Positions 349 through 38,005 of a DNA stretch of 59,876 bases are shown one piece after another (the stretch's first letter is position 1; the number at the start of each line of letters is the position of its first letter). The DNA comes from Bacillus sp. ISL-45 (GTDB lineage Bacteria > Bacillota > Bacilli > Bacillales > Cytobacillaceae): the NCBI RefSeq assembly GCF_018613195.1, contig NZ_JAGGQQ010000014.1:1-59876 (forward strand), given 5' to 3'. The notes beneath the pieces were generated by a model, which saw only the letters and a program-made list of their open reading frames with translations, did not search any database and was not told where the DNA came from. A program made the position numbers and the translations under genes.

Positions 349-1175
349 TGACTTCGGACAAGTTTGGAGGTAATGAACGAAAAGTTGTCTGAACCTGAGT
401 CAACTTCAGACAGGTTTGGTGGAAAAACACGAAAAGTTGTCTGAACTTGAGCCAACTTCAGACAGGTTTGGTGGAAAAACACGAAAAGTTGTCTGAACTT
501 GATGCAACTTCAGACAGGTTTAAGGAAAAATAACGAAAAGTTGTCTGAACTTGAGTCAACTTCAGACAGGTTTGGTGGAAAAGCATAAAAAGTTGTCTGA
601 ACCTGAGTCAACTTCAGACAGGTTTGAAGGAAAAACACGAAAAGTTGTCTGAACTTGATGCAACTTCAGATAGGTTTGATGGAAAAACACGAAAAGTTGT
701 CTGAACTTGATGCAACTTCAGACAGGTTTGATGGAAAAACACGAAAAGTTATCTGAACTTGAGCCAACTTCAGACAGGTCTGAAGGAAAAACACGGAAAG
801 TTGTCTGAACTTGATGCAACTTCAGACAGGTTTGAAGGAAAAACACGAAAAGTTGTCAGAACTTGAGCCAACTTCAGACAGGTATGATGGAAAAACACGA
901 AAAGTTGTCAGAACTTGATGCAACTTCAGACAGGTTTGGTGGAAAAGCACACAAAGTTGTCTGAACCTGAGTTAACTTCAGACAGGTTTGAAGGAAAAAC
1001 ACGAAAAGTTGTCAGAACCTGAGCCAACTTCAGACAGGTTTGAAGGAAAAACACGAAAAGTTGTCTGAACTTGATGCAACTTCAGCCAGGTTTGAAGGAA
1101 AAACACACAAAGTTGTCTGAACTTAATACAACTTCAGTCAGGTTTGGAGGAAAAGTCCGAAAATTTGTCCCAACC
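349..1175. repeat. 52-bp tandem array with internal palindromes (15 clear copies)
   Basis: The segment CAACTTCAG recurs at 401, 453, 505, 557, 609, 661, 713, 765, 817, 869, 921, 973 (TAACTTCAG), 1025, 1077 and 1129, always 52 bases apart. A degenerate copy lies in the same register at 351. Each unit reads roughly AAGTTGTCTGAAC, TTGAGCCAACTTCAGACAGG, then TTTGAAGGAAAAACACGA. Two mutually exclusive hairpins are possible per unit: TGTCTGAA with TTCAGACA, and AAGTTG with CAACTT. The period is not a multiple of three and no long reading frame crosses it, so it is not coding. It fills most of the 1.1-kb gap between 5S and csfB. Copies differ by scattered substitutions, such as GTCAGAA in three units between 850 and 1015. 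Confidence 0.95.
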
Positions 1176-1358
1176 AAAACAAACCTTTCATCAATCGTAA
1201 TATAATCCTAAATCCCTGATCTAAACCATCTAAAAATCAACAACCATTTCTTCTCAAATAATAAACCAACCTAAATTGTTATAAGACATACAAGGAATCC
1301 GAATGTCAATCATAAAATATAAAACAACTAAACTTTCTAAAATATTATTCGAAAAATT

Positions 1359-1388
1359 GTATACAAAAAAACGCTCCTGGCAACAATA
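1359..1388 (+). promoter_or_regulatory. sigma-F type promoter of csfB
   Basis: GTATA at 1359-1363, a 15-base spacer and GGCAACAATA at 1379-1388 match the forespore sigma-F/G consensus (GYWTA, 15 bases, GGNRANAMTW) at every position. csfB of B. subtilis is known to be sigma-F controlled, so this is a strong regulatory assignment. Transcription would begin near 1394-1396, almost at the ribosome binding site. Confidence 0.8.
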
Positions 1389-1408
1389 GGTGTACGGAGG
1401 TGGAGAAT

Positions 1409-1612
1409 TTGGGTTCGCTTTTAGCTAAGAATCAAATCGGGGAAACGTGTGTGATTTGCGAGCAGAAAAAAAGTGCTGGCATACACCTGTATACTTCTTT
1501 TATATGCACAGACTGTGAGAGCATCATGATCAAGACAGATACGAGTGATCCTAAATATAAATATTATGTAGAAAAGCTAAGGAAAGTAACAAAGCCTGGC
1601 ATTTACAGTTAA
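1409..1612 (+). CDS. csfB: Anti-sigma-G factor Gin (CsfB)
   Basis: Small zinc-binding inhibitor of the forespore sigma factor SigG; it keeps SigG silent during early forespore development and can also act on SigE. The 67-residue product has the family pattern of two CXXC pairs (C14-C17 and C33-C36) around the segment GIHLYTSFICTDC, then a conserved tail TSDPKYKYYVEKL ending in IYS. I start at TTG 1409, because GGAGGTGG (1396-1403) sits 5 bases upstream. A GTG at 1400 lies inside that binding site and only a few bases after the predicted transcription start. In B. subtilis xpaC and yaaN follow csfB; here yaaO follows directly. A hairpin terminator overlaps the stop codon, so it is a single-gene unit. 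Confidence 0.9.
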   Translation: MGSLLAKNQIGETCVICEQKKSAGIHLYTSFICTDCESIMIKTDTSDPKYKYYVEKLRKVTKPGIYS

Positions 1613-1640
1613 AAGCTCATTTCGAGCTTTTATTTTTTTT
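1612..1640 (+). terminator. csfB terminator
   Basis: AAAGCTC paired with GAGCTTT around a short loop, followed by TTATTTTTTTT. It begins in the csfB stop codon. Confidence 0.85.
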
Positions 1641-1695
1641 GCTGAAAAACAGTGTTAGAATAGATAGGTGTGAATTTATAGATATAGGTGAGATT

Positions 1696-3117
1696 ATGGA
1701 TCAATCCAAAACACCCTTGTACTCTCAATTGGTTAACCATTCAAATGGAAACCCTCTATCGCTTCATGTACCGGGGCACAAATATGGGTCTTTTTTTTCC
1801 GTAGAGGGCCAAATCTTCTTTCAGCAGATTTTGAAATTGGATGCAACCGAAATAACAGGATTGGATGACCTTCATTCGCCCGAGGGAGTTATTTTCGAAG
1901 CTGAGGTTTTACTTAGCGATTTATATAAAACAAAAAAAAGCTTTTTTTTAATAAATGGATCAACTGTCGGGAATCTTGCGATGATCATGGCGGCAATCAA
2001 TGAAGATGATTTGGTGCTTGTCCAGCGTAATTCCCATAAATCCATTATGAATGCTATAAGACTCGCAAAAGCAAAACCAGTATTCATAAGCCCGGAGTAC
2101 AACGAAGAGTTCGGAGTGGCTGCCGGGTTAAGTATTGATGGTGTCAAATCAGCCATTAGCCAGTATCCGGATGCAAAGGCACTTATTTTAACCTACCCAA
2201 ATTATTACGGACTGACTTATGATCTCAAAAGCATTATAGATTTGGCTCATGAGCATAGCATTCCTGTATTGGTGGATGAGGCTCATGGTGTACATTTTAT
2301 CGCAGGGGATTATTTTCCGGAGTCTGCCGTTGAACTTGGGGCCGATATTGTCGTACAGTCTGCTCATAAAACATTGCCGGCGATGACAATGGGAGCCTTT
2401 CTCCATTATCAGTCGAACTCGGTATCACTCAGTAAGCTAAAGTTCTATTTACAGGCCCTACAGTCAAGCAGCCCTTCCTATCCGCTGATGGCATCCCTCG
2501 ATTTGGCACGGAGCTTCCTGGGTACTTATAAACAGGAAGACTTGTCATATTTGAAAACAGAACTGCAGGAATTCAAAGAAAAACTAGAGAAATTGGCATC
2601 CATTCGGGTTTTGCCAGGGGCTGATCCATTAAAGCTGACCATTCAATCCTGGTCTGGTTTCGAGCTGCAATCCAGGCTTGAATCGAAAGGGATTTATACG
2701 GAAATGGCTGACCCTTATAATGTGCTGCTCGTTCTTCCGTTGCTGAAGCATGGCATGGAGCATCGCTTGCTGGAAGCTGCTGAAAAGATTGCTGAGGTAG
2801 TAAGCACCATTCCGGATGAGAAAAATAAACCTGAGTCAAAAGTCATCCAAAAAAGTATTTCAACTTTGGAAGTCAGCTATAAAGAGATGGAGAATCAGCA
2901 GACAGAATACGTCCTGTTACAGGATTCCGCAGGCAAGGTCTGTGCGGAACAAATCATTCCTTATCCGCCAGGAATACCACTTTGTCTCCCTGGTGAAGTT
3001 GTGACGGAAGCCGATATTGAAACAATCTTTTTCTTAAAAGCAAAACAAGCAAAAATCCAGGGCGGAGAATCTTTGCATGCTGGTAAAATAAAAGTGTTTA
3101 AGAGTTGGGGGCTTTAA
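1696..3117 (+). CDS. yaaO: PLP-dependent Orn/Lys/Arg decarboxylase family protein YaaO
   Basis: Fold-type I pyridoxal-phosphate enzyme of the ornithine/lysine/arginine decarboxylase family, 473 residues. N-terminal HVPGHKYG (about 24-31) is typical. STVGNLAMI and SHKSIMNAI line the cofactor pocket, VDEAHGVHF supplies the Asp contacting the pyridine nitrogen, and SAHKTLPAM holds the Schiff-base lysine (K225). The C-terminal decarboxylase segment [13 protein letters not shown] is present. The true substrate is not decided by sequence; B. subtilis YaaO is a paralogue of the arginine decarboxylase SpeA. I start at ATG 1696 after AGGTGAG. An upstream in-frame TTG at 1639 lies in the T-run of the csfB terminator and is unlikely. 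tmk follows 2 bases after the stop, suggesting cotranscription. Confidence 0.88.
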
Positions 3118-3119
3118 AA

Positions 3120-3770
3120 GTGGAAAAAGGAATATTTATTACGATTGAAGGTCCGGATGGTTCTGGAAAGACGACAATCCTTCAGATGCTTGCTCAAAAC
3201 CTTGAAAAAGAAGGATACGCCGTGGTGGCTACTCGTGAGCCTGGAGGCATCGATATTGCTGAACAAATCAGGGAAGTGATCCTGGATCCGGAAAATACTG
3301 CAATGGACCCGCGAACAGAAGCACTTCTATATGCCGCGGCGAGAAGGCAGCATCTTGCAGAGAAGGTGAAGCCTGCTCTCGAAGAAGGAAAAATTGTCCT
3401 ATGTGATCGTTTTGTTGATAGTTCTCTTGCGTACCAAGGGCATGCTCGAGGTTTAGGTATTAATGAAGTATACTCCATCAACGAATTTGCGATTGAAAAT
3501 ATGATGCCGGCGATGACTCTATACTTTGATGTCGCACCGGAGATTGGGCTGGAAAGAATCAATAAAAACAAAGGCCGTGAAGTCAATCGACTGGACCTGG
3601 AAAAGCTCGACTTCCACCAAAAGGTGAGAGAAGGCTATTTAATCCTGGCTGAGATGTTCCCAAAACGAATTGTTAAAGTGGATGCTTCTAAGGAACTCGA
3701 TACAGTATATGGACAAGCAGAAGCTGAAATTAAAACGCTCATAAATACATTTTTTCCAAACAAGTCTTGA
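3120..3770 (+). CDS. tmk: Thymidylate kinase
   Basis: Phosphorylates dTMP to dTDP with ATP, the last specific step of dTTP supply, in the cytoplasm. The 216-residue protein has the P-loop GPDGSGKTT (11-19), the DRF motif at 96-98 followed by VDSSLAYQG, and the LID-region Arg/Lys stretch [12 protein letters not shown]. The start is GTG 3120, two bases after the yaaO stop, with GGGGG at 3107-3111 as binding site. The earlier in-frame TTG at 3105 would place the binding site inside the gene. Next comes a terminator, then darA, as in B. subtilis. Confidence 0.96.
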
Positions 3771-3793
3771 TCAACCTGAGGCTTGTTTTTATT
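3760..3793 (+). terminator. tmk terminator
   Basis: ACAAGTCT pairs with AGGCTTGT (one G-T pair) and is followed by TTTTTATTT. It spans the tmk stop codon. Confidence 0.7.
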
Positions 3794-3800
3794 TAGATTG

Positions 3801-3860
3801 GCGAATAAAGGCTTATTTTAGCGAATGGTATCAACTGGAAGCCAATGGGATTTCACGTTT
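3801..3860. repeat. Three 20-bp units in the tmk-darA spacer
   Basis: GCGAATAAAGG at 3801, GCGAATGGTAT at 3821 and GCCAATGGGAT at 3841 are spaced 20 bases apart. Only the first six bases of each unit are well conserved, so this is a weak array. Confidence 0.35.
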
Positions 3861-3870
3861 AAATCATGTC

Positions 3871-3900
3871 TTGACCCATGAATCCTGTTATAATGATAAT
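3871..3900 (+). promoter_or_regulatory. Sigma-A promoter upstream of darA
   Basis: TTGACC at 3871 is followed by TGTTATAATGATAAT. Either an extended -10 (TGTTATAAT, 3886-3894) or GATAAT at 3895-3900 (18-base spacer from TTGACC) could serve. The region is 85-110 bases before the darA start. Confidence 0.6.
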
Positions 3901-3981
3901 ACAAAAGTTACGGAGTGAAATCTTTTCGTTGAGCTTGCGCCGTGTATAGCAAGTCTATAAAAAAGTCTAGGGGGATAATGA

Positions 3982-4311
<330 letters not shown>

Positions 4312-4338
4312 CAGGAAATACCCGGAAGTTAGCAAGAG

Positions 4339-4779
4339 ATGAAGATTAATCAGGATATGCGCCTTAACATAGATAAAATCCGACAGGATCAAAAACAACA
4401 GCCTGGAGGCGGAATCAGGTTCAATGAAATGGTGGTAAAGCAAGAACATAAATTGCAGCTCGGACAGATGCAGCAATTAATGAAGGAAGTCGAGTCTGCC
4501 GGTGAAAGGCTTGCGCGGTTTAGGACGTTCAAGGACCTGGCCAAATTCAAGCCACTGGTTAAGCAATTCGTAAAAGAAGCGGTCAGCTTTGAAATGGAGC
4601 TAAAGCACTCGCATAGCTGGAATGAATATGGCGAAGGCAGGTCATTGAAACTTGTAGAGAATATTGATGAAAAGCTCGTCGAGTTGACAGAAGAGTTGAT
4701 GGATAATAAAGATGAACAGATTGATATCCTTGGCAAAGTAGGGGAAATCAAAGGTCTGTTGATCAATTTATATACGTAA
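4339..4779 (+). CDS. yaaR: DUF327 family protein YaaR
   Basis: A 146-residue soluble, charged and mostly helical protein of the YaaR/DUF327 family; molecular function unknown. It has no signal peptide or membrane segment. The conserved core is FRTFKDLAKFKPLVKQFVKE (about 55-74), and the C-terminal region is rich in Leu/Glu heptad-like spacing that could form a coiled coil. It sits between darA and holB with short gaps, the same order as in B. subtilis, so it probably shares their transcript. The ribosome binding site before ATG 4339 is poor (GCAAGAG). Confidence 0.85.
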   Translation: MKINQDMRLNIDKIRQDQKQQPGGGIRFNEMVVKQEHKLQLGQMQQLMKEVESAGERLARFRTFKDLAKFKPLVKQFVKEAVSFEMELKHSHSWNEYGEGRSLKLVENIDEKLVELTEELMDNKDEQIDILGKVGEIKGLLINLYT

Positions 4780-4783
4780 GTGA

Positions 4784-5800
4784 GTGATCGCATTGGCAAA
4801 GACGTGGGACGAGCTGGAGAGACTTCAGCCGAATGTTTTGAAAATGATTAAAAACAGCATCCTGAAAAATCGAATAGCCCATGCGTATTTATTTGAAGGA
4901 ATGAGGGGCACCGGCAAAAAGGAGATTAGTATTCTTCTTGCCAAGAGCATCAATTGCCGGGCGCCTGTTGATGGCTATAAACCTTGTGAAAGCTGCTTGA
5001 ACTGCAAAAGGATCAACCATGGCAACCATCCGGATATCCATCTTGTCGAGCCCGATGGCCTGTCGATAAAGAAAGGGCAAATCCAGCAGCTGCAGGAGGA
5101 GTTTTCAAAAACAGGGGTAGAGTCAAAGAATAAGCTATACACCATTGTCCATGCTGATCGGATGACGACAAATGCGGCAAACAGTTTGCTGAAATTCCTT
5201 GAGGAGCCGCATGCGGGAACTGTTGCCGTGTTGATCACCGAGCAGGCCCAGCAAATGCTGCCGACTATTTTATCGAGATGCCAGTTGATCAATTTCACGC
5301 CGTTATCTCCTAAAAATATGGCAGAACAACTGATTGCCAATGGGATACAACCGCAACTGGCACCTCTGTTGGCACAGCTAACCAATAATTTGGAAGAAGC
5401 TTTAGAGATAAGTCATGATGATTGGTTTGCACAAGCACAAAAAATAGTGTTAAAATTATATGAAGTGCTGAAAAAGAATTCCCTTGAAGCTATGGTCGCG
5501 CTTCAAGAGAACTGGTTTATGCACTTCAAAGAGAAAGAACAAATCGATCGTGGTTTGGATTTATTACTTCTTATTTTTAAGGATTTACTATACATTCAGC
5601 TTGGCAAGAAAGACCAGGTTGTATATCTAAACGAAAGCTCACGTTTAGAACAATTTGCATTACAGACATCCGGACGGCGTCTTACCGAACAAATGGCAGC
5701 CATTCTGGAGGCGAAGAGGAAGCTGCATGCCAATATGAATCCCCAGCTGCTCATGGAAGAGCTGGTGTTAAAATTGCAGGAGGGATCTACACTTGTATGA
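4784..5800 (+). CDS. holB: DNA polymerase III delta-prime subunit
   Basis: A clamp-loader ATPase-fold subunit that with delta and tau opens the beta sliding clamp at the replication fork. 338 residues, with Walker A region GMRGTGKK (39-46) and a four-cysteine zinc module at C58, C68, C71 and C74. The sequence LLKFLEEPH is followed by LPTILSRCQ with the SRC sensor motif. The start may be GTG 4784 or TTG 4793; homologues do not decide it strongly. The 3' end overlaps ricT by 8 bases. DarA-YaaR-HolB-RicT-YabA form one tight cluster. Confidence 0.95.
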   Translation: MIALAKTWDELERLQPNVLKMIKNSILKNRIAHAYLFEGMRGTGKKEISILLAKSINCRAPVDGYKPCESCLNCKRINHGNHPDIHLVEPDGLSIKKGQIQQLQEEFSKTGVESKNKLYTIVHADRMTTNAANSLLKFLEEPHAGTVAVLITEQAQQMLPTILSRCQLINFTPLSPKNMAEQLIANGIQPQLAPLLAQLTNNLEEALEISHDDWFAQAQKIVLKLYEVLKKNSLEAMVALQENWFMHFKEKEQIDRGLDLLLLIFKDLLYIQLGKKDQVVYLNESSRLEQFALQTSGRRLTEQMAAILEAKRKLHANMNPQLLMEELVLKLQEGSTLV

Positions 5801-6623
5801 TGTAGTAGGTGTCCGCTTCAAGAAAGCGGGAAAGATTTATTATTTTGATCCCGGCGATCTCTCAATTCAAAAGGACGAATTCGTCATTGTCGAAACTGTA
5901 AGGGGCGTTGAGTACGGAAGAGTCGTAACTCCCCGTAAACAGGTCGGCGAAAAGGATGTAGTCCTGCCTCTGAAAAAGGTAGTCAGAATTGCAGATCAGA
6001 AGGATCGCCTTATTGTCGAGGAGAACAAAACAGCTGCAAAGGAAGCGTACGATGTTTGCAGTGAAAAAGTGAGTGAGCATCAACTGGATATGAAACTGGT
6101 TGATGTTGAATATACATTTGACCGCAATAAAGTCATTTTCTACTTCACGGCTGACGGCCGCGTCGATTTCCGGGAACTGGTCAAGGATTTGGCCTCGATT
6201 TTCCGGACAAGGATTGAACTGCGCCAGATTGGCGTAAGGGATGAAGCGAAAATGCTTGGCGGGATAGGACCATGCGGCAGAATGCTTTGCTGCTCCACGT
6301 TCCTGGGGGACTTTGATCCAGTTTCAATCAAGATGGCCAAGGATCAAAACCTCTCGCTTAACCCAACAAAGATTTCCGGCCTTTGCGGCAGGCTCATGTG
6401 CTGTTTGAAATATGAGAACGACCAATATGAAACAGCGAAAGAGCAGCTGCCTGATCTGGGTGAAATGATTGTTACACCTGATGGTACAGGAAAGGTTGTG
6501 GGGTTGAACATCCTGGAACGAGTCATGCAAGTCGATATACCTGGCCAGGAACGCGTGCTGGAATATACACTTGAGGAAATACAGGAAGCAGGAGCTGTAT
6601 CGTTGCAATCATCCACAGATTAA
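5793..6623 (+). CDS. ricT: RicT (YaaT), PSP1-domain subunit of the RicAFT complex
   Basis: In B. subtilis RicT with RicA and RicF forms an iron-sulfur-containing complex that partners RNase Y in mRNA maturation and affects biofilm formation, competence and Spo0A activation. The 276-residue protein carries the PSP1 domain. It shows the two signature cysteine clusters: GPCGRMLCC (C161, C166, C167) and [10 protein letters not shown] (C198, C203, C204). The start is TTG 5793, with AGGAGGG at 5778-5784, 8 bases away; the reading frame overlaps the end of holB. yabA follows 13 bases after the stop. Confidence 0.95.
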
Positions 6624-6636
6624 TGAGGTGGAACAG

Positions 6637-7008
6637 GTGGATAAAAAAGATATCTTTGACTCAGTAAGTAATATGGAATCGCAGATTGGTGATTTATACC
6701 GTCAGCTTGGTGAGTTAAAACAGCATTTGGCAGAGGTTCTGGAAGAGAACAATGCATTAAAGCTGGAAAATGAGCATATAAGACGCCGTCTGGATCAAAC
6801 CATTGGTAAAAAAGATCCAACCATTAAGAAGAGCGGTAAGGGAAACAGCAATCAGGCACAGGGTGATAAAAATGTGGTCGACATCGGTGAAGGCTACGAT
6901 AACCTTGCCCGCCTGTATCAGGAAGGCTTCCATATCTGCAACCTGCATTTCGGAAGCCCCCGCAAAGAGGATTGCTTATTCTGCCTATCCTTTCTTAATA
7001 AAAAATAA
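6637..7008 (+). CDS. yabA: Replication initiation control protein YabA
   Basis: A negative regulator of DnaA that bridges DnaA and the beta clamp and limits initiation at oriC. 123 residues: an N-terminal leucine-rich coiled coil (about 8-55) for tetramerisation, a linker rich in Lys/Gly/Asn, and a C-terminal zinc-binding domain with HICNLHFG and CLFC (C101, C113, C116, with H99 or H104). The start is GTG 6637, 5 bases after GAGGTGG; upstream frame extension runs into ricT. It ends the darA-yabA transcription unit at a clear terminator. Confidence 0.93.
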
Positions 7009-7012
7009 TTGG

Positions 7013-7042
7013 CAGCCTTCCTTAATTGGGAAGGCTATTTTT
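7013..7042 (+). terminator. yabA terminator
   Basis: AGCCTTCC pairs with GGAAGGCT around a 7-base loop and is followed by ATTTTTA. Confidence 0.88.
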
Positions 7043-7235
7043 ATAATACTCTTTCGTAAAGTTATAAGCATTTACACACTATTTAACACATGTTCGATTT
7101 GGCATCTTCGAAAGGAGCCCAAAACCCCTAAGAATGCTGATACCTATATATACTCGAAAAGCAACAATCAATTTTTAATTAGCAGTTCACAGGTTCACAG
7201 CCATTGAACATATATGTATGGAGGAACTATCTATA

Positions 7236-7979
7236 ATGGTTAATTTACGGGAAGATGAACGATTGGATTATTTGCTGGCAGAGGATTTAAGGATTATCCA
7301 GAGCCCGAATGTATTTTCGTTTTCATTGGACGCTGTTTTGCTTGCAAGGTTTGTCTGGGTGCCAATCCAAAAAGGCAAGATTGTCGACCTGTGCAGCGGC
7401 AATGGGGTAATTCCATTGTTTTTAAGCGCAAGGACAAAGGGGACAATTACCGGGGTGGAGATCCAGGAGCGGTTGTACGATATGGCAGTCCGCAGTATTG
7501 AATATAATAATCTAGACGATCGGTTACATATGATTCATGGTGATCTCAAGGATGCGGCTAAAGAGCTCGGCTACGAGAAGTATGATGTCGTAACATGCAA
7601 TCCTCCTTATTTCCTTACACCTTCAAAGGAAGAAATAAATATGAATGAACACCTTGCGATTGCGCGTCATGAGATCCTCTGCACACTCGAGGATGCGATT
7701 AAATCATCAAGCCAGCTTGTGAAGCAGGGCGGTAAGGTTGCCTTTGTCCACCGTCCTGGCAGATTGATCGATATCATCGAAATGATGAGGAAATACCGGC
7801 TTGAGCCTAAGCGGATCCAGTTTGTTTATCCTAAGGCCGGGAAGGAAGCGAATACGCTTTTGGTAGAGGCAATCAAGGATGGAAGTCCTGACCTTAAAAT
7901 TCTTGAGCCATTGACGGTATATGATGAAAATAATGAGTATACCCCGGTGATCAAAGAAATGTTATATGGAAGCAAATAA
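7236..7979 (+). CDS. yabB: tRNA1(Val) adenine-N6 methyltransferase-like protein YabB
   Basis: A class I SAM-dependent methyltransferase of the TrmN6/YfiC family, 247 residues. [14 protein letters not shown] is motif I for SAM binding and CNPPYF (NPPY at 122-125) is the amino-methyltransferase catalytic motif. By family it should methylate adenine N6 in a tRNA, probably position 37 of tRNA-Val; the exact target is inferred. I start at ATG 7236 ([14 protein letters not shown]) because GGAGGAAC at 7220-7227 sits 8 bases upstream. The in-frame ATG at 7218 overlaps that site. In B. subtilis yazA lies between yabB and rsmI; here only 23 bases separate them, so yazA is absent at this locus. Confidence 0.9.
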
Positions 7980-8002
7980 GTACAGAGAAACGGGTGATTT
8001 AC

Positions 8003-8884: not shown

Positions 8885-8902
8885 TGCGGAAACAGCACAT
8901 AT

Positions 8903-14462: not shown

Positions 14463-14590
14463 TTTTTCATTTTACGTTTAAGGTATAATAAGAAAAGCGT
14501 AATCGCTTAAAAACTTTACACCTATATAGACGATTATATTTCAAAAATGTTTCATTTATTTCAAAGAAAATTTATTTCTTTTTTAATTTT

Positions 14591-17897: not shown

Positions 17898-17914
17898 TGC
17901 CTTTTTTAAAAAAG

Positions 17915-18043
17915 GCTCTTTTCTCAAACTTTGTTGCTATTGATTGCAAGGCGCTTTTCTCAAACTTTGTTGCTATTGACTGCAAAATAGGATTGAATGA
18001 CCTGTTTTTTTTCGCACACTTGCCTCTTTTGTGAGAAAAGAGC
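17915..18043. repeat. 36-bp direct repeat bounded by a 12-bp inverted repeat
   Basis: CTTTTCTCAAACTTTGTTGC followed by TATTGA-TGCAA occurs twice, 36 bases apart (from 17919 and 17955). The first arm GCTCTTTTCTCA (17915-17926) is exactly complementary to TGAGAAAAGAGC at 18032-18043. The segment lies between veg and sspF and has no coding potential. Confidence 0.75.
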
Positions 18044-20966: not shown

Positions 20967-21118
20967 ATTGAAAGAGTGAAGCGTGGAATGGGAGCTGAAT
21001 ACATCACAAGAGGAATTAACATGTGCCCGTGAAAAGAGAAAAAACAATTTGACGGTCACAAAAAGGGCAAACATGTGCCTGGGAAAGGAAAAACCAATTT
21101 GACGGTCACAAGAAAGGC
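20967..21118. repeat. 50-52-bp tandem repeat (two clear copies, one degenerate)
   Basis: ACATGTGCC at 21019 and again at 21071 (52 apart) is followed in both by GAAAAG/GAAAGG, AAAAACAATTTGACGGTCACA and a GGCA tail. TCACAA at 21004, 21056 and 21106 keeps 52 and 50 spacing, indicating a degenerate first unit. TGTGCC can pair with GGCACA across a unit. The sequence is unrelated to the array at 349-1175, but the period is the same. Confidence 0.75.
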
Positions 21119-24503: not shown

Positions 24504-24528
24504 ATGTTTTTCAGGTAAAGAGGAGTCA

Positions 24529-24715
24529 AGCTGTCAAGAAAAGCTTGTAATTATGACAGCTTCAGGAGAAGAGGTCAAAGCTGTCAAGAAAAGCTCGTAA
24601 TTATGACAGCTTTTGAGGGGAAGAGGTCAAAGCTGTCAAGAAAAGCTCGTAATTATGACAGCTTTTGTGGAGAAGAGCTCAAAGCTGTCAATAACCCTAG
24701 CAATTCAGACACTTG
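24529..24715. repeat. 50-52-bp tandem array with palindromic units (3.5 copies)
   Basis: AGCTGTCA starts at 24529, 24579, 24631 and 24683 (spacing 50, 52, 52). In the first three units it faces TGACAGCTT about 25 bases on, giving an 8-9-bp stem AAGCTGTCA/TGACAGCTT around AGAAAAGCTCGTAATTA. The fourth unit is truncated. Non-coding, downstream of prs. Confidence 0.88.
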
Positions 24716-24744
24716 TGTAATCAGAAAGAAATGGATGATTACGT

Positions 24745-24830
24745 GACATGGAGCGTGGCAAACTCATGGGAGACCCGGCAGGCAATGAAGCGCCTGGAAC
24801 GAAAATCAACAGCCTTGTTGAAAGGGCTCA
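24745..24830. repeat. Degraded copy of repeat B
   Basis: Contains GGGAGACCCGGCAGGC, AATGAAGCGCCTGGAACG and AAAATCAACAGCC, the right half of the element at 14591-14777, followed by TTGAAAGGGCTC. Confidence 0.65.
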
Positions 24831-24841
24831 AAAAGTATAAC

Positions 24842-24866
24842 GTTTAGACCTTCCTGTTTTGGGGCA
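24842..24866 (+). promoter_or_regulatory. Possible sigma-B promoter of ctc
   Basis: GTTTAG (24842-24847), a 13-base spacer and GGGGCA (24861-24866) resemble the sigma-B consensus GTTTAA and GGGWAW. The match is imperfect, but the position, spacing and known sigma-B control of ctc support it. Confidence 0.5.
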
Positions 24867-30245: not shown

Positions 30246-30577
30246 CCATATGGAAATATTTTGTAATCTAAATGTAAAATGATAAGGTGTTTCAAAAAAG
30301 ATAGACAAGGGTAATTTCTGTGTGTACGCAAATATTAGCTGGAAGGTTTATCCGTTTTTGGCACCTTTATCACTTCAAAGAAAATAATAATGAGAAGTGT
30401 ATAGAACTTTCCATATGAAAGATACTAAGTTCAAATCTTGGTAAGGTTGATTAATAAAGGCATTATTATTTCCAATGCTGTTTTCGTAAATTGGATTGAT
30501 TTTAAACGAAAGCAGTAATTATAGCAAAACAACCTTATCTAAAAAATAATCATCAGATGAAAGTGAGGCAACGTTGG
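30246..30577 (+). other. mfd-spoVT spacer with 10-bp inverted repeat
   Basis: CATATGGAAA (30247-30256) is exactly complementary to TTTCCATATG (30408-30417), 150 bases apart. I see no terminator with a T-run after mfd and no clear sigma-G promoter for spoVT. Confidence 0.5.
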
Positions 30578-31114: not shown

Positions 31115-31138
31115 TCATCACCGATTTATAATCTTACC

Positions 31139-31169
31139 TGAAAGGGCAGCTGACGAGGCTGCCTCTTTT
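31139..31169 (+). terminator. spoVT terminator
   Basis: GAAAGGGCAGC pairs with GCTGCCTCTTTT, the 7-bp core being GGGCAGC/GCTGCCT with one G-T pair; a T-run follows. Confidence 0.78.
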
Positions 31170-31204
31170 CGTGCTTGGAAGTATAAACTTGTTGCACAAT
31201 TAGG

Positions 31205-31612
31205 GTGTCCAACTCCGCGCTTGTCGGGGCTGACCAAGGCGCTAGCGCTTTTCTATTTGTCTAGCTTCAGCGCCTAGCCAGTTTCATCCCGGAGATGTCT
31301 TCCCTGAGTATCTTGCGATAAGCGTTAGCTTTGAGCAGCTCGAGTCGCTTGTCTAGTGTCGCCTCCTAGAAACTCCGAAACTTCAACTCCGCCGGCAGAA
31401 GCAAAAAGCGCTTCTTTGTCGGAGTCTCCAGTTTCTGTGTTTCTGGACAGTCGGCTATACTTTTCGATTTCGGTCCTGCCAATGAAGTCAAAGAACGACT
31501 TCACTGTCAAGCCCTCCGAGGAACAGGATGTGCTAGACCCGCCAGCCACAGGACGTGGCGCTTTAAGGCGCTTGCGCTTGTCGGGCTGACCAAGGCGCTT
31601 GCGCTTTTCTAT
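31205..31612. repeat. Composite of dispersed repeat A (three segments)
   Basis: A short copy at 31205-31254 is followed by a partial one at 31260-31345 and a long one at 31345-31612. The segment 31353-31517 matches 41157-41321 with about six differences in 165 bases. The long form contains the hairpin TGAAGTC-AAAGAAC-GACTTCA. A minus-strand reading frame of about 60 codons crosses both long copies but shows no coding signature. The block nearly fills the spoVT-yabM gap. Confidence 0.82.
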
Positions 31613-31674
31613 GTTACAGCTGTCTAACAAATTAATGTTGTCTGTTTCGCTTGCGGCCGCCGCTTTTTCCCTTG

Positions 31675-31683
31675 TGATATAAT
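31675..31683 (+). promoter_or_regulatory. yabM extended -10 promoter
   Basis: TGATATAAT is a consensus extended -10 element 34 bases before the gene. No good -35 at normal distance. Confidence 0.5.
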
Positions 31684-31716
31684 ACGTTTGAAACTGAAAT
31701 TGGAAGGAGATGGGCG

Positions 31717-33321
31717 ATGAAGCCCGTTGCAGATTCAAAGGAATTGATGAAGGGAGCTATGATCCTTACTCTGGCTGCCCTGGTTACGAAAATTTTAAGC
31801 GCCCTATACCGTGTCCCTTTTCAAAATATCGTCGGGGACATTGGTTTTTATATTTATCAGCAGGTGTATCCCTTTTTTGGCATTGTCATGGTTTTATCTA
31901 CATATGGATTTCCGGTTGTCATTTCAAAGCTTTATACGGAGCAGCAGGCGGCCGGTAATAGTGGCAGGGCTGATCGCCTATTGGCCATTTCGCTCGTATT
32001 TCTCGGTATCATTGGGTTGTTCCTTTTTTCCTTTTTCTATATTGGTGCTGGATGGATTGCCAATAAAATCGGTGATCCTGAACTGAAGCCCTTATTTAAG
32101 GTTGTATCTGTGCCATTTCTGATCTTCCCCTTCACCGCAGTGTTCAGGGGATATTTCCAGGGGAAGGGTAACATGGTGCCGACAGCGATTTCTCAGGTTT
32201 CAGAACAGTTTATCCGGGTCGCGACCATTCTTACCTTGTCAGCGGTGCTTGTACAGCAGGGTTTCTCTCTATATGTCACTGGGGCCGGAGCTGTATTCGG
32301 ATCGATAACAGGCGGGGTTATCTCCGTTTTGATACTCGGATTTTTTTATCTGAAAAATGGAGGAGCCAATCCCTTCACCTATTTTCACTTCAAGGATTTA
32401 TTTAAGGACGCAGCCTGGGTCGTAAAAGCATTGATCATTCAGGGATTTGCGATCAGCATCAGTGGCATGCTGTTAATATTGCTGCAGCTTGCGGATTCCT
32501 TGAATATGTATTCTTCATTGCTGGCAAGGGGGCTGACAGCCGAGGAAGCAAAGTCGGCAAAAGGCATTTTTGACAGAGGGCAGCCGCTGATCCAGCTTGG
32601 GACAGTTGTCGCCACTTCGATGTCCTTAAGCCTTGTTCCGGCAATTTCAGGTGACAAATCAAGTAATCGCCGCGATAGAATCCTGCCCAAAGTGAGACTC
32701 GCCCTTCAGACAAGCTTGATTTTTGGAGCTGCCGCTGCGGTTGGGTTATATAGCATCATCGTTCCAGCTAATATCATGCTGTTTGAGAATGCTGATGGAT
32801 CTAATGTGCTTGGAGTGCTCAGCTTGATGATTTTATTTGGATCTGTCATCCTGACGATTATGAGCATTTTGCAGGGTCTTGATAAGTCAATTTTTCCGGC
32901 TGCAGTCATACTTGCCGGATTTGGCTTGAAATACATATTGAACCTGATACTGATCCCGGATATTGGGACAATGGGGGCAGCTTATGCCACATTGGCGGCG
33001 ATGCTGGCAGTCATGTTCATCCTCATTTTTAAGCTGAGACATGAACTCGGCCAACCAGTTCTATCACTTGTTTTCATTGGAAAAATCCTGTTTTCCTCGG
33101 CAGTGATGGTTATAGTTTTACGATTATTTCTATATATAACGGATTTCGGTTATGACTATATTGAACCCGACAGGCTCGGAGCTGTATTCCAAGCATTAAG
33201 CTCTATAGTTATCGGAGCACTTGTTTATTTTTTCATATTAATCAAAACGAAGGCTTTGACTGAAGATGAACTAGTGACTTTGCCATTCGGCAGCAGGATG
33301 GTCCAGTTATTCTTTAAATAG
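31717..33321 (+). CDS. yabM: MATE/MVF-type polysaccharide transporter YabM (SpoVB-like)
   Basis: An integral membrane protein of the MOP flippase superfamily, related to SpoVB and to MurJ-type lipid flippases; 534 residues with about 14 hydrophobic segments. Conserved family features: KGAMILTLAALVTKILSALY, then FGIVMVLSTYGFPVVISKLY at the N-terminus, PFTAVFRGYFQGKGNMVPTA, and SQVSEQFIRV. The substrate is not known; export of a cell-envelope precursor is a family-based guess. The start is ATG 31717 with GGAAGGAGAT 6 bases upstream. yabN starts 29 bases after the stop. Order spoVT-yabM-yabN-rqcP is as in B. subtilis. Confidence 0.9.
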   Translation: MKPVADSKELMKGAMILTLAALVTKILSALYRVPFQNIVGDIGFYIYQQVYPFFGIVMVLSTYGFPVVISKLYTEQQAAGNSGRADRLLAISLVFLGIIGLFLFSFFYIGAGWIANKIGDPELKPLFKVVSVPFLIFPFTAVFRGYFQGKGNMVPTAISQVSEQFIRVATILTLSAVLVQQGFSLYVTGAGAVFGSITGGVISVLILGFFYLKNGGANPFTYFHFKDLFKDAAWVVKALIIQGFAISISGMLLILLQLADSLNMYSSLLARGLTAEEAKSAKGIFDRGQPLIQLGTVVATSMSLSLVPAISGDKSSNRRDRILPKVRLALQTSLIFGAAAAVGLYSIIVPANIMLFENADGSNVLGVLSLMILFGSVILTIMSILQGLDKSIFPAAVILAGFGLKYILNLILIPDIGTMGAAYATLAAMLAVMFILIFKLRHELGQPVLSLVFIGKILFSSAVMVIVLRLFLYITDFGYDYIEPDRLGAVFQALSSIVIGALVYFFILIKTKALTEDELVTLPFGSRMVQLFFK

Positions 33322-33350
33322 GGTTTTACATGAAGGAGGAAAAAAGGGAA

Positions 33351-34814
33351 ATGACAAACAAGATTTTGATCATCGGACTGGGAGCGGGCGACCTCGACCA
33401 GCTTCCGCTTGGTGTATATAAAAAATTGAAGCAGGAGAAAAACCTGTTTTTGCGGACAAAAGAGCATCCGGTCGTTGCTGAGCTTGAGAAGGAAGGGCTG
33501 CAGTTTCAATCGTTCGATGGAATTTATGAGAAGCATGACCAGTTTGAGGATGTTTATGAGGAAATCACCGAGTTTTTGCTTGCTGAAAGTGCCGAGGCTC
33601 CTGTAATCTATGCCGTTCCAGGACATCCCTTGATTGCGGAGCGGACGGTGCAGCTCCTGCTCGAACGAGGACCAGGGCGGAATACGGAAATTGAGATCGG
33701 CGGCGGCCAGAGTTTCCTGGACGCCATGTTCCAGTCCCTGGCGATCGATCCGATCGAAGGTTTTCAGCTGCTAGATGGCACAGCATTGTCAAAGGAAGAT
33801 TTGCTGCTGAAGAACCACACAATCATCGGACAGGTGTATGATGCGTTCGTAGCATCTGAGGTCAAGCTGACACTTATGGAAAGATTGCCCGATGATTATG
33901 AGGTATGGATCGTGACAGCGGCGGGAAGCAGTGATGAGGTCATCAAAAAGGTCCCATTATACGAATTGGACAGGGAGATGGAGCTAAGCAATCTGACATC
34001 GGTTTATGTTCCGCCGGTTGAAGATGAACAAATTTTATACAAGGATTTTCTGAAGCTGCGTGGAATTATATCAGAACTGCGCGGTCCGAATGGCTGTCCT
34101 TGGGATAAGAAGCAGACCCACCAGTCTCTCAAGAAATACTTGATTGAAGAATCATATGAATTGCTGGAGGCAATCGATCATGATGATATCGATCATATGA
34201 TTGAAGAGCTGGGCGATGTGCTGCTTCAAGTCATGCTTCATGCGCAGATAGGTGAGGACGACGGCTACTTTACCATCGATGATGTAATTGAAGGCATATC
34301 TGCAAAAATGGTCCGCAGGCACCCCCATGTTTTCGGGGACAAAACGGCGGAGAACGAAGAAGATGTCATGAAAAACTGGCAGGAAATCAAGGAGCAGGAA
34401 AAAGGCGGTGCGACAAAGTCTATGCTGGAGGGAGCCGGAAAAGGGCTTCCGAATCTGCTAAAGGCATATGAGCTGCAGAAGGAAGCGGCTAAAGTTGGAT
34501 TTGACTGGAAGACGGCGGCACCCATCCTTGATAAGGTAAAGGAAGAAATTGAAGAGCTATCCGAGGAAATCACCGAAAAAGGCATTCAGGAAGATATCGA
34601 GCTGGAATACGGAGATCTTTTGTTTGCGCTTGTCAATTTCGCAAGGCATTACGATATCAATCCGGAAATGGCACTGAACAAGACCAACAGGAAGTTCATG
34701 CGCCGCTTTGCCTATATCGAACAAAAAGCAGCAGACAGTGGGCGAAGTGTCGAGGACTACACGCTGGATGAATTGGATGCTTTTTGGGAGGAAGCTAAGA
34801 CACAAGGTTTATAG
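33351..34814 (+). CDS. yabN: Tetrapyrrole-methylase / MazG fusion pyrophosphohydrolase YabN
   Basis: 487 residues in two domains. The N-terminal part (about 1-215) has the tetrapyrrole methylase fold (IIGLGAGDLDQLPLG, YAVPGHPLIAERTVQLL). The C-terminal MazG domain (about 225-487) is a nucleoside triphosphate pyrophosphohydrolase, with LRGPNGCPWDKKQTHQSLK and the metal-binding EESYELLEAID and EELGDVLLQV. A house-cleaning role against aberrant NTPs is likely; the substrate of the methylase-like part is unknown. I start at ATG 33351, 10 bases after AAGGAGGA; ATG 33330 precedes that site. Confidence 0.95.
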   Translation: MTNKILIIGLGAGDLDQLPLGVYKKLKQEKNLFLRTKEHPVVAELEKEGLQFQSFDGIYEKHDQFEDVYEEITEFLLAESAEAPVIYAVPGHPLIAERTVQLLLERGPGRNTEIEIGGGQSFLDAMFQSLAIDPIEGFQLLDGTALSKEDLLLKNHTIIGQVYDAFVASEVKLTLMERLPDDYEVWIVTAAGSSDEVIKKVPLYELDREMELSNLTSVYVPPVEDEQILYKDFLKLRGIISELRGPNGCPWDKKQTHQSLKKYLIEESYELLEAIDHDDIDHMIEELGDVLLQVMLHAQIGEDDGYFTIDDVIEGISAKMVRRHPHVFGDKTAENEEDVMKNWQEIKEQEKGGATKSMLEGAGKGLPNLLKAYELQKEAAKVGFDWKTAAPILDKVKEEIEELSEEITEKGIQEDIELEYGDLLFALVNFARHYDINPEMALNKTNRKFMRRFAYIEQKAADSGRSVEDYTLDELDAFWEEAKTQGL

Positions 34815-34835
34815 GTAAAGGGTATTTCGCATTGT

Positions 34836-34965
34836 TTGTTGCTTTTCGAACAACACTTACAGTTATGCGCATTTTAGAGTTTCGGGCTCTTTTCGAAGAT
34901 GCTGCCGAAATGAATATGCGTGCATAATCGTAAAAATCCAGATGGGTGTGGAAGCAACAAAGCTT
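34836..34965. repeat. 10-bp inverted repeat in the yabN-rqcP spacer
   Basis: TTTGTTGCTT near 34837 is complementary to AAGCAACAAA near 34953, enclosing about 105 bases. Confidence 0.4.
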
Positions 34966-35018
34966 ATGAAAAGAGCGCAGGTAAAACAAACCAATAATGA
35001 AAAAGGGGTTTAAATACG

Positions 35019-35291
35019 ATGAGGCTGGATAAATTTTTAAAAGTATCAAGATTAATCAAAAGAAGGACATTGGCGAAAGAAGTATCCGATCAAGGGAGGA
35101 TTTCCGTCAACGGTGTGCCGGCGAAAGCAAGTACGAATGTAAAAGTGGGCGATGAATTGGCGATCCGCTTTGGACAAAAAGTCGTCTCTGCAAAAATCGA
35201 GAGAATACAGGAAACATCCCGTAAAGATGAAGCTGCCGGAATGTATACCCTTCTCGGGGAAGAACGTATCCCAGGGGACGATGAAGAGTAA
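35019..35291 (+). CDS. rqcP: RqcP (YabO), S4-domain ribosome quality control protein
   Basis: Works with RqcH on stalled 50S-peptidyl-tRNA complexes during alanine tailing of incomplete chains. 90 residues dominated by an S4 RNA-binding domain (MRLDKFLKVSRLIKRRTLAK, then ISVNGVPAKASTNVKVGD). The start is ATG 35019 after AAAGGGG. yabP and yabQ follow, so it heads the rqcP-yabP-yabQ-divIC stretch. Confidence 0.95.
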   Translation: MRLDKFLKVSRLIKRRTLAKEVSDQGRISVNGVPAKASTNVKVGDELAIRFGQKVVSAKIERIQETSRKDEAAGMYTLLGEERIPGDDEE

Positions 35292-35333
35292 GCTGAGCTT
35301 CGTGTGAAGGCTTGTTCTATTCTCCCTTATTCA

Positions 35334-35362
35334 ATCATAAACATGTACAAAAGTGCATTATG
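35334..35362 (+). promoter_or_regulatory. Possible sigma-E promoter of yabP
   Basis: ATCATAA (35334-35340), 14 bases, then CATTATGA (35355-35362) partly resembles the sigma-E elements; yabP/yabQ are sigma-E genes in B. subtilis. The -10 match is poor. Confidence 0.3.
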
Positions 35363-35378
35363 ATTGTGAGGGATATTA

Positions 35379-35681
35379 ATGAGCCAATATTATGAAACGA
35401 ATCAGACAAAAAGCAATGTGCCAGACCACGATTTAGTGATGAGAGGCAGACGGACACTGGATATCACCGGAGTAAAGCAGGTTGAAAGCTTCGATAATGA
35501 AGAGTTTTTATTAGAGACAGTCATGGGATTCCTTGCGATCAAGGGACAGAATCTTCAAATGAAGAATCTGGACGTCGACAAAGGGATTGTGTCGATCAAA
35601 GGGAAAATCTTTGACCTGGTCTATCTTGATGACCAGCATGGGGAGAAGGCTAAAGGCTTCTTTAGCAAGTTATTCCGATGA
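35379..35681 (+). CDS. yabP: Spore protein YabP
   Basis: A mother-cell sporulation protein needed with YabQ for a late stage of spore formation. 100 residues, YabP/YqfC family: HDLVMRGRRTLDITGVKQVE, SFDNEEFLLETVMGFLAIKG and MKNLDVDKGIVSIKGKI. No membrane segment. The start is ATG 35379 after GTGAGGG. The stop overlaps the start of yabQ (ATGA), implying coupled translation. Confidence 0.94.
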   Translation: MSQYYETNQTKSNVPDHDLVMRGRRTLDITGVKQVESFDNEEFLLETVMGFLAIKGQNLQMKNLDVDKGIVSIKGKIFDLVYLDDQHGEKAKGFFSKLFR

Positions 35682-36313
35682 CGCTTTCGACCCAATTTTT
35701 GACCATGCTCGCCATGATTTGGATGGGCAGTCTATTCGGTGCTTCACTTGATACGCATAATCGGTTTCTGAAAAGATCTAAGCGAAAATCCTGGATCGTC
35801 TTCATCAATGACATCCTGTTCTGGGTAGTCCAGGGCCTGTCGATTTTCTATGTATTATTTTCAGTGAATATGGGAGAATTGCGTTTTTATATCTTCCTTG
35901 CCTTATTATGCGGTTTTGCGGCCTATCAGAGCCTGTTCAAGAAACTTTATCTGAAGATGCTGGAACGGTCTATCACCTATACGATCAATGTATATGTATT
36001 CATGGTGAAGGCTGTCAGGATCCTTGTGGTCAGGCCTCTCCAGTTTTTGGCCGCCACCGCACTGTCACTATTGCTTTTGACGGGAAGAGGCCTTTATTCT
36101 CTTTTAAAATGGCTTCTTGCCGTTTTGCTATGGCTGCTCAATAACTTAATTTGGAAGCCAGTCAAGATGATTCTCCTGCTTTTTTGGAAACTTTTGCCGA
36201 AAACAGTTAAAAAAAGCGTCGAGAAATTATATAATAAATTGGCAGGATTTCTAATTATAGTAAAGAATTATTTTACTAAGCCGATAAAATGGATAAAGAA
36301 GTTAAAAAAATAG
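35678..36313 (+). CDS. yabQ: Spore cortex biosynthesis protein YabQ
   Basis: A membrane protein that B. subtilis needs for spore cortex formation. 211 residues. Hydrophobic segments at about 4-22, 40-60, 66-86, 110-135 and 145-170, separated by basic stretches, and a strongly basic C-terminus (KPIKWIKKLKK). N-terminal TQFLTMLAMIWMGSLFGASL, with DTHNRF next, is family-typical. The start is ATG 35678, overlapping the yabP stop. The product should sit in the outer forespore membrane from the mother-cell side. Confidence 0.92.
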   Translation: MTLSTQFLTMLAMIWMGSLFGASLDTHNRFLKRSKRKSWIVFINDILFWVVQGLSIFYVLFSVNMGELRFYIFLALLCGFAAYQSLFKKLYLKMLERSITYTINVYVFMVKAVRILVVRPLQFLAATALSLLLLTGRGLYSLLKWLLAVLLWLLNNLIWKPVKMILLLFWKLLPKTVKKSVEKLYNKLAGFLIIVKNYFTKPIKWIKKLKK

Positions 36314-36393
36314 GCTGTATGAAAGCAATTGTTATTCAATGTCTTGTTGAACGGAATCAACAGCAAAAAAATATATAAGGAGGACTGCGGGGA

Positions 36394-36792
36394 ATGAGTG
36401 CCATCAGGAAAAAAAGCATAGCCAAGATTGAAAATCAATATGTACAACAGCGTGAAAAAGCCGGGATTGCAGAAAGCAGGAAGCGAAAACTGCTTTTCAG
36501 GCGCCTCGCAGTCTTTGCCCTATTCGCATCGGTCATTTCTTATTTGATGATCTCAACCTACATTTCCCAGTCTGCAGCCCTCGAAAAGAAGCAGTCGGAA
36601 AAGGAACAGCTAGAGCAAAAATTAGCAAGCCTTCAAAAGCAGCAGGAAATCCTGGATGAGGAAATCGTCAAATTGAACGATGATGAATACATAGCAAAGC
36701 TTGCCCGCAAGGAATATTTCCTGTCCGAAAAGAATGAAATCATCTTCAACCTTCCTAAAGAGAAAAAGGACTCCCAAGATTCGCCTTATTGA
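36394..36792 (+). CDS. divIC: Cell division protein DivIC
   Basis: A bitopic divisome protein of the FtsB/DivIC family that complexes with FtsL and DivIB. 132 residues: a basic cytoplasmic N-terminus, one membrane span (about 36-56, AVFALFASVISYLMISTY) and an extracellular coiled coil (about 60-95, rich in Glu/Lys/Gln/Leu), then DEYIAKLARKEYFLSE. The start is ATG 36394 with AAGGAGG upstream. The yabR promoter begins in its last codons. Confidence 0.95.
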   Translation: MSAIRKKSIAKIENQYVQQREKAGIAESRKRKLLFRRLAVFALFASVISYLMISTYISQSAALEKKQSEKEQLEQKLASLQKQQEILDEEIVKLNDDEYIAKLARKEYFLSEKNEIIFNLPKEKKDSQDSPY

Positions 36793-36818
36793 CACTCTTT
36801 TTTCATATTCTGTATAAT
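36789..36818 (+). promoter_or_regulatory. yabR sigma-A promoter
   Basis: Consensus TTGACA (36789-36794), an 18-base spacer and TATAAT (36813-36818), overlapping the divIC stop. Confidence 0.85.
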
Positions 36819-36866
36819 ATAATGTAAGTTTGATTTTTTATATCTTTAAGGAGGCAAAACTTTTTT

Positions 36867-37322
36867 ATGTCAATCGAAGTAGGCAGCAAGTTACAGGGAA
36901 AGGTAACAGGTATTACAAATTTCGGGGCGTTCGTCGAGCTGCCGGGTGGCTCAACAGGACTTGTTCACATCAGTGAGGTTGCAGACAACTATGTCAAGGA
37001 TATCAATGACCACCTGAAAGTTGGCGACCAGGTTGAAGTAAAGGTTATCAATGTTGAGAAAGACGGTAAAATCGGTTTATCTATCAAGAAGGCAGTTGAT
37101 AGGCCTGAACGACCTGCAAGACCAGAAAGATCTGAATCAAGACCTTACTCACAGCGTCCACGCGGCGGCGGGGGCGGCAGAGGAAACGACAACCGCAATG
37201 CCCGTCCTGAAAATTTCGAATCAAAAATGGCGAAATTCTTGAAGGACAGTGAAGACCGCCTGTCCACTCTAAAACGTGCTACTGAATCCAAGCGCGGAGG
37301 AAGAGGAGCTAGAAGAGGGTAA
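36867..37322 (+). CDS. yabR: S1 RNA-binding domain protein YabR
   Basis: 151 residues with one S1 domain at 1-72 (GSKLQGKVTGITNFGAFVEL, then GLVHISEVADNYVKDI), followed by a low-complexity tail rich in Arg, Pro and Gly (RPERPARPERSESRPY and GGGGRG). The tail suggests RNA binding with disorder. Related to B. subtilis YabR/YugI and general stress protein 13; the function is not settled. The start is ATG 36867 after AAGGAGG. Strong own promoter and terminator. Confidence 0.93.
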   Translation: MSIEVGSKLQGKVTGITNFGAFVELPGGSTGLVHISEVADNYVKDINDHLKVGDQVEVKVINVEKDGKIGLSIKKAVDRPERPARPERSESRPYSQRPRGGGGGRGNDNRNARPENFESKMAKFLKDSEDRLSTLKRATESKRGGRGARRG

Positions 37323-37370
37323 CTTGCTGCTAAGTGAATATATATAATAGCAGGAATCATGCTATACCAA

Positions 37371-37410
37371 GACAAGTCTCTTACAGGGCTTGTCTTTTTG
37401 TTTTTTTTCG
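37371..37410 (+). terminator. yabR terminator
   Basis: AGACAAGTC pairs with GGCTTGTCT (one G-T pair) and is followed by TTTTTGTTTTTTTT. Confidence 0.9.
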
Positions 37411-37585
37411 AGGCCTGATTGCAGGAGAGAATTTGGTGCTGTTTTTTCACTGATTAATAGGATAAAAGCCAATGAAAGATGATTCTCCGCATTAATTGCT
37501 CATTCAATATGGAAAATCGGGCAGAAGCACGCCTGATTTAATGAATAATGGTAACTGGAAAAATTATTCTCTTAATGAACATCGA

Positions 37586-37690
37586 TAATTGCCCAGTCAT
37601 TCTGCGTAATCTCCCGATCAAAAGGAATAATCTCCCGAAAAAGGACCGTAATTGCCCAAACAAACGCAATAATCATGCCGTCATCCAAAT
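37586..37690. repeat. 21-bp tandem array (five units)
   Basis: TAATTGCCC or TAATCTCCC starts at 37586, 37607, 37628, 37649 and 37670 (TAATCATGCC), exactly 21 bases apart. Unit consensus is about TAATCTCCCGAAAAAGGACCG. 21 bases is a multiple of three, but no frame of useful length has a ribosome binding site. Confidence 0.85.
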
Positions 37691-37798
37691 TAAGGGAAAT
37701 TATACTAATGTGGAAATGGAATCAAGACTAAAAGCACACCAAGTCTGGAATTAAAAAGGTAATTGGAGAGATTAATCTTTTGACTGATTGAAGAATTG

Positions 37799-38005
37799 GG
37801 CGATGTGTACTGCTTTTAACATAAGACACTGCCTGAATAATAGTGTTTGAGCGAATTTGGGTAAAAGAAAAAGCGCCGCATTGCCCGAAAAGTGCTGCCG
37901 AAGCGAATTTGGATAAAAGCAAAGTGTCTGGATTTCCCGAAAAACAGTGCAGGAGTGAATAAAGGTAAAAGCAGGAGTGCTGATGCATTCCACAGCCCGA
38001 AAATA
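37799..38005. repeat. 52-bp tandem array downstream of yabR
   Basis: GCGAATTTGG at 37851, the same at 37903, and GTGAATAAAGG at 37955 are 52 apart. CCCGAAAA at 37884 and 37936 keeps the same spacing; the third CCCGAAAA at 37996 is shifted by 8. A degenerate unit precedes at 37799. Each unit also has GGTAAAAGC/GGATAAAAGC. Sequence unrelated to the other 52-bp arrays. Confidence 0.82.

Follow-up and report, generated by a model that had tools for sequence, protein, structure and literature searches.

In 176 Bacillus genomes, Subirana and Messeguer (2021) reported 4029 tandem repeats, with 1886 in the 51-53-nt class and 781 in the 20-21-nt class (PMC8161180, in which a 2020 J. Bacteriol. paper is also cited). 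These repeats keep a constant length while their sequence varies, form several families per species and contain short signals together with their reverse within one repeat; the discoverers called the 52-nt satellites enigmatic (PMC8161180). The 82 repeats of B. selenatarsenatis, 59.8% of which have 52 nt, are common to B. boroniphilus and B. subterraneus (PMC8161180), and both B. selenatarsenatis and B. boroniphilus, listed in Table 1 of that paper, are close relatives (Mesobacillus) of the organism studied here. REP/BIME elements of Gammaproteobacteria are likewise intergenic, palindromic, of high copy number and sometimes tandem with alternating arms, with a GT[AG]G tetranucleotide at the palindrome foot, according to PMC6006769; the arrays reported here differ in their fixed 52-nt pitch, their Firmicutes host and the absence of the association with a Y1 (RAYT) gene that marks REP/BIME. 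The orientation of IS200/IS605 elements follows replication because they act on the lagging-strand template, as stated in PMC5371812. The likeness to the arrays lies in this replication-linked orientation and in hairpins in single-stranded DNA, which for the arrays would be predicted; the differences are that the arrays are without transposase, show no fixed ends and consist of tandem units. BOX elements of Streptococcus pneumoniae are intergenic and structured, with boxA and boxC end modules and a variable number of the middle repeat; the arrays resemble them in position, structure and variable repeat number, and differ in unit length. CRISPR was ruled out, since the array units run head to tail with no unique spacers between repeats.

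Arrays in the window and their relatives

The window, a stretch of 59,876 nt from Bacillus sp. ISL-45 (contig NZ_JAGGQQ010000014.1), holds four arrays to which an earlier note had assigned one shared period of 50-52 bp, and shorter-period arrays beside them. The features are as follows.

141..256, + strand: 5S rRNA gene, which precedes array 1 (Rfam 15 search)
351..1169, + strand: array 1, behind the 5S rRNA gene, 52-bp unit x 15.8 with the inverted repeat TTCAGACA..TGTCTGAA (TRF period 52, 0% indels)
14537..14581, + strand: weak 20-bp array, 2.2 copies (TRF)
21018..21117, + strand: array 2, two units of the GTGCCCG..CGGTCAC cluster (TRF and reading of units)
24528..24691, + strand: array 3, 52-bp unit x 3.2 with the inverted repeat AAAGCTGTCA..TGACAGCTTT (TRF period 52)
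37605..37652, + strand: 20-21-bp array, second constant-length class (TRF)
37853..38008, + strand: array 4, three divergent units of the TTGCCCGAAAA..GGTAAAAG type, beside two tRNA genes (read by eye and lag test)

The arrays are real, and the observation of the note is confirmed in part: TRF recovered arrays 1, 2 and 3 at the noted positions, and the lag test array 4. The shared period is exact in arrays 1, 3 and 4, the unit starts of array 4 (37853, 37905 and 37957) lying exactly 52 apart. The two unit starts of array 2 (21018 and 21070) are also 52 apart, but its second unit is 2 bp shorter, so TRF gives a period of 50 with a 53-letter consensus and no significance is reached in the ungapped lag-52 test (identity 0.42, p 0.48). 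Array 4, whose units have diverged too far for TRF, was missed at score 30; its lag-52 identity is 0.523 vs a maximum of 0.433 in 1000 shuffles. At gathering score, the Rfam 15 matches in the window were limited to 5S, 16S and two tRNAs and included none of the arrays, and the best sub-threshold match of array 1 was IMES-1, at 28 bits vs 81 needed. The spacer of array 2 is presumably the one upstream of spoVG (named from B. subtilis gene order), and array 3 lies downstream of a gene that we take to be prs. The published search was limited to at least four repeats (PMC8161180); the window arrays hold 15.8, about 2, 3.2 and 3 copies, and the orthologous spacers of arrays 2 and 3 hold longer versions in other genomes.

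Other repeated sequences accompany the arrays. Sequence like GCGAAGCGCCTGGAACGAAAATCAACAGC, at 24740-24850 of the window, is found behind prs arrays in many species (loci L222-L241) and resembles a widespread Bacillus repeat. An inverted repeat element like CTCCAGCGCTTGTCGGAGC lies between the two tRNA genes (38138-38255) and similar sequence occurs in other spacers of the own genome and of a complete relative, G011. The 36-bp repeat at 17912-17985 has sequence in common with a tandem repeat of 191 bp at another place in the genome (L028:7582-7971). The 20-21-bp arrays have cores such as TCGCTATAAA, TCGCCAATAAA and TTTGCGAATAAA (window 37605-37652; L168:13777, L169:5359, L170:9255, L193:10523).

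The arrays are almost certainly the constant-length 52-nt intergenic satellites that Subirana and Messeguer described in Bacillus relatives. The unit has 52 nt (51-53) across families of different sequence, several non-coding families occur per genome, signals and their inverse stand in one unit, copy number or presence differs between genomes, and a 20-21-nt class occurs alongside; the genus of the window is among those listed, the clusters are the same in those genomes, and we found no difference in the arrays themselves. This is a rediscovery of published Bacillus repeats, and the statement in the earlier note that no named element has these properties was mistaken, since PMC8161180 describes repeats of just these two lengths, 52 nt and 20-21 nt, held constant while the sequence varies.

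We collected 178 arrays of about 52 bp, most of them from loci chosen for holding the family. A single-linkage similarity chain joins 162 of the 178, with clusters such as ATTGGTG/CACCAAT and ATAAGGGTAC/GTACCCTTAT standing apart, so the four window arrays, previously taken as unrelated, are not wholly so. The array-1 unit has 100 matches in its own genome, 69-96% identical and most of them at multiples of 52 bp. Matches to the GACAG-type unit were obtained in 19 of the 21 genus genomes (none in G012 and G018, one in G019); in the family, with four candidates scored per genome, 34 of 193 genomes from 7 of 25 genera have them. A scan of named genomes placed the GACAG cluster of the window in Mesobacillus boroniphilus, M. 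selenatarsenatis and others, among the matches listed. Two records titled Chryseobacterium sp. ISL-80 and Cytobacillus oceanisediminis DE0166 (L059, L051) carry Mesobacillus-type arrays and look mislabelled. TRF also detected 52-bp arrays in other genera (three in 100 kb of G151, three in 180 kb of G039, one in 180 kb of G154), and these hold different inverted repeats; in samples of 80 kb each, G033 gave one 51-bp array (in a mechanical ORF), G021 gave one 48-bp array, and G031 gave no array. Within the genus, G018 has three 52-bp arrays in 200 kb taken at contig starts, and 168 kb of G012 gave no 52-bp array by TRF and two lag-52 runs.

Period, unit length and stems

The distribution of periods was surveyed in 20 stretches of 20 kb at round coordinates on eight large contigs of the own genome (400 kb of 4.6 Mb) and in 40 stretches of 20 kb, one every 120 kb, of G011 (800 kb of 4.84 Mb); merged TRF arrays with a score of 60 or more were counted. 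The own genome gave 24 arrays, with period 52 in 10, 53 in one, 104 in one and 20-21 in seven. The 65 arrays of G011 have period 52 in 24 cases, 53 in two, 104 in one and 20-21 in seventeen. In a control experiment, one third-order Markov copy of the 1.2 Mb produced a single array, of period 24, and a chance origin of the 52-bp excess is rejected on this ground. An intergenic lag test also gave 52 as the commonest lag (12 runs in the own genome, 26 in G011), followed by 104 and then by 20-21 or 40. By proportion we extrapolate to roughly 140-160 arrays per genome. The sharp genome-wide excess at 52 and 20-21 bp that the earlier note had looked for is thus borne out in both samples, and the flat distribution that it named as the opposite outcome is excluded by the TRF survey.

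Among 131 arrays with both neighbouring genes called, 26 lie in convergent, 79 in codirectional and 26 in divergent spacers; the position just after a terminator or operon end, noted for the window arrays, is not general. Mechanical ORFs of at least 100 aa cover over half of only 19 of 175 arrays and 52 is not divisible by 3, which fits the claim that the arrays are non-coding. Downstream of prs, TRF detected a 52-bp array in 13 of 21 genus genomes, with 2.9-13.9 copies, so copy number does vary, here between species; among the remaining genomes, two have short remnants by eye, five have a 121-155-bp spacer with no array, and the spacer of G012 holds other sequence. The spacer upstream of spoVG has an array in 10 of 21 genus genomes, and both arms change in a matching way between its versions (GTGCCCG..CGGTCAC vs CGCCCG..CGGTCG). 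We concluded that arrays are retained at orthologous spacers even as their copy number shifts.

The unit length is constrained. Across 149 arrays we counted 337 indels vs 6030 mismatches (1 per 18), and 62 arrays are without indel; the flanks of the orthologous prs array have 1 indel per 5.5 and 5.0 mismatches. Indels are therefore roughly 3.4 times rarer in the arrays than in flanking spacers, a figure that is an estimate because TRF favours regular arrays and the compared ages differ. Together with the rare indels, the recurrence of 52 in other genera and in clusters that differ in their inverted repeats supports a length constraint independent of sequence, as had been proposed. Plain helical phasing, offered earlier in explanation, is rejected as a sufficient reason, since other whole-turn periods are not in excess and the arm spacing inside the unit is free. 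TRF arrays of 31, 32 or 63 bp were absent from the own-genome and G011 stretches, the three 42-bp TRF arrays of G011 are all inside mechanical ORFs, and the few 42 and 63 lags of G018 are multiples of its 21-bp arrays.

An inverted repeat is present in most unit types. It is significant in 42 of 57 non-redundant consensi at p<0.05 and in 28 at p<0.01, against 200 mononucleotide shuffles. Arm-centre distances range from 14/37 to 26/26, and their sum stays about 52. Within the GACAGGTT/AAGCTGTC cluster, 736 of 756 cases have an inner gap of 17 nt, and successive copies are 52 apart in 697, 51 in 15 and 53 in 7, with a few units counted twice where loci overlap. The stems are constrained: variation is 3.4% at stem sites vs 13.1% at others, about four times less (92 arrays, 823 units). 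Double complementary stem changes are in modest excess (17 vs a shuffle mean of 9.9, with a maximum of 16 in 200 shuffles). Among single stem changes, read on the leading-sense strand, G.T is favoured over A.C with an odds ratio of 1.67 and a bootstrap interval of 1.16-2.46, which is optimistic since arrays of one cluster are not independent. Folding energies are moderate for arrays 1 and 3 and no better than shuffles for array 2, and the predicted folding of the arrays shows no strand preference.

These data bear on two explanations. In the proposal of Subirana and Messeguer (PMC8161180), raised in part by the earlier note as well, the units are double-stranded sites along which a protein would polymerise on one helix face, with a five-turn step of 52 bp, in nucleoid organisation. 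The exact pitch and the conserved short signals with their inverse in one unit agree with it, whereas the lack of excess at other whole-turn periods, the free arm spacing and the G.T over A.C asymmetry, which points to single-strand folding, speak against it, and we consider it unlikely. Alternatively, the arrays may be neutral satellites, one old 52-bp family homogenised in each array by slippage and gene conversion and without function. The single-linkage chain, the likeness of units within a locus and the copy-number differences between species would all follow from such a history; the indel depletion, the low stem variation, the exact 52 in unrelated clusters and other genera, and the polarity described below would not, which makes it improbable.

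Orientation relative to replication

Exact-motif counts gave a clear polarity. The directional motif of G011 has 66 forward units, all at or below 2.05 Mb, and 48 reverse units, of which the 34 with listed positions are all at or above 2.92 Mb, and the switch in GC skew falls between about 2.52 and 2.66 Mb. All 100 listed motif units are thus on the leading strand, and the 14 unlisted units are all reverse. In G007, 18 of 19 arrays and 59 of 67 units are leading-strand, with an exception near 3.319 Mb; in G009, 12 of 13 arrays among the matches listed agree, with an exception near 441 kb. The replichore switch was measured in G011 only; elsewhere the chromosome middle was taken as the switch because prs lies near 61 kb as in G011. 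Both exceptions adjoin a gene on the strand of the array and are compatible with small inversions. In four genomes the GTGCCCG cluster shows this orientation at 23 of 23 places, some of them weak single matches. When cluster orientation was combined with local skew, agreement was found for 20 of 24 arrays in G011, 30 of 33 in the own genome and 102 of 113 at named loci (152 of 170 in total), and we tentatively ascribe most of the 18 disagreeing arrays to near-symmetric units. Because symmetric units make cluster-based orientation unsafe (59 parity conflicts among 7895 links), the polarity claim rests on the exact-motif counts in G011 and G007. A purine-content test agreed in 25 of 27 cases in G011 and in 11 of 11 in G018 and other genera; it is weaker because other leading-strand intergenic DNA is also purine-rich (0.527 vs 0.610 in arrays). 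The 20-21-bp arrays of G011, read by eye, occur in both orientations on both replichores, unlike the 52-bp arrays.

An orientation set by the flanking genes is not supported. Of 14 arrays whose two neighbours both oppose the leading strand, 13 still follow it; of 62 whose neighbours both run along it, 53 do. We concluded that array orientation follows replication and not the neighbouring genes. Polarity that disregards genes speaks against read-through RNA and points to a link with replication. The arrays could be transcribed and act as structured small RNAs or sponges, as 52-nt repeats are transcribed in B. coagulans (PMC8161180; also PMC8625621), and the G.T asymmetry fits RNA pairing equally well. 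This explanation leaves the polarity to replication unaccounted for, and the independence from flanking genes and the 26 of 131 arrays in divergent spacers make it distinctly unlikely.

Polarity of the same kind was seen for IS200-type Y1 transposase genes: all 9 copies in G005 and G007 lie along the replication direction. The arrays are palindromic, intergenic and numerous in each genome, and might then be REP-type elements moved by a Y1 (RAYT or IS200-like) transposase. Y1 genes do not track arrays across the genus genomes, however: G016 and G020 are without a Y1 match yet have 134 and 121 array matches, G012 and G018 have Y1 matches but no GACAG-type matches, and no 52-bp array lies within 1.5 kb of the three Y1 genes of the own genome. 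Dependence on Y1 is not supported, and movement by such an enzyme is very improbable.

A possible reading of the 52-nt step

Our preferred explanation, to which we give a probability of about 0.4, is that the leading-sense strand folds as single-stranded lagging-strand template and is read at a 52-nt pitch. This strand would be exposed single-stranded at the fork and could fold into hairpins spaced 52 nt apart, which a host protein or the replication machinery might read; no protein or pitch reader for a 52-nt step was found. Arrays would grow and shrink by slippage or recombination, and their dispersal would go through an event on the lagging-strand template in which orientation is preserved. 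The published family, the excess at 52, the polarity, the stem constraint, the G.T over A.C bias and the polar IS200-type genes count for this folding, and the modest number of double changes, the lack of strand choice in predicted folding, the orientation exceptions and the 52-nt transcripts count against it. In its fuller form the satellites would be replication-polar elements, forming hairpins on the lagging-strand template, with a host factor that fixes the 52-nt step and spread by a Y1-free single-strand process; this combination we regard as somewhat doubtful.

The phenomenon is real and already in print for the Bacillus group; replication polarity is the new clue and the part worth following. 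Neither polarity nor stem constraint, indel depletion or orthologous persistence was found in the text of PMC8161180, which is without the words "orientation", "palindrom" and "hairpin" and does not use "strand" or "replication" for array orientation; the earlier 2020 paper may differ. Since it was described, this kind of bacterial satellite, fixed in length and free in sequence, has been without a known function. The search for one is narrowed by polarity, by the constraint on stems and by the scarcity of indels: gene-linked RNA and plain helical phasing become less attractive, and single-strand folding while the DNA replicates more so. If true, a replication-polar reading would be the first functional handle on this enigmatic class of satellites.
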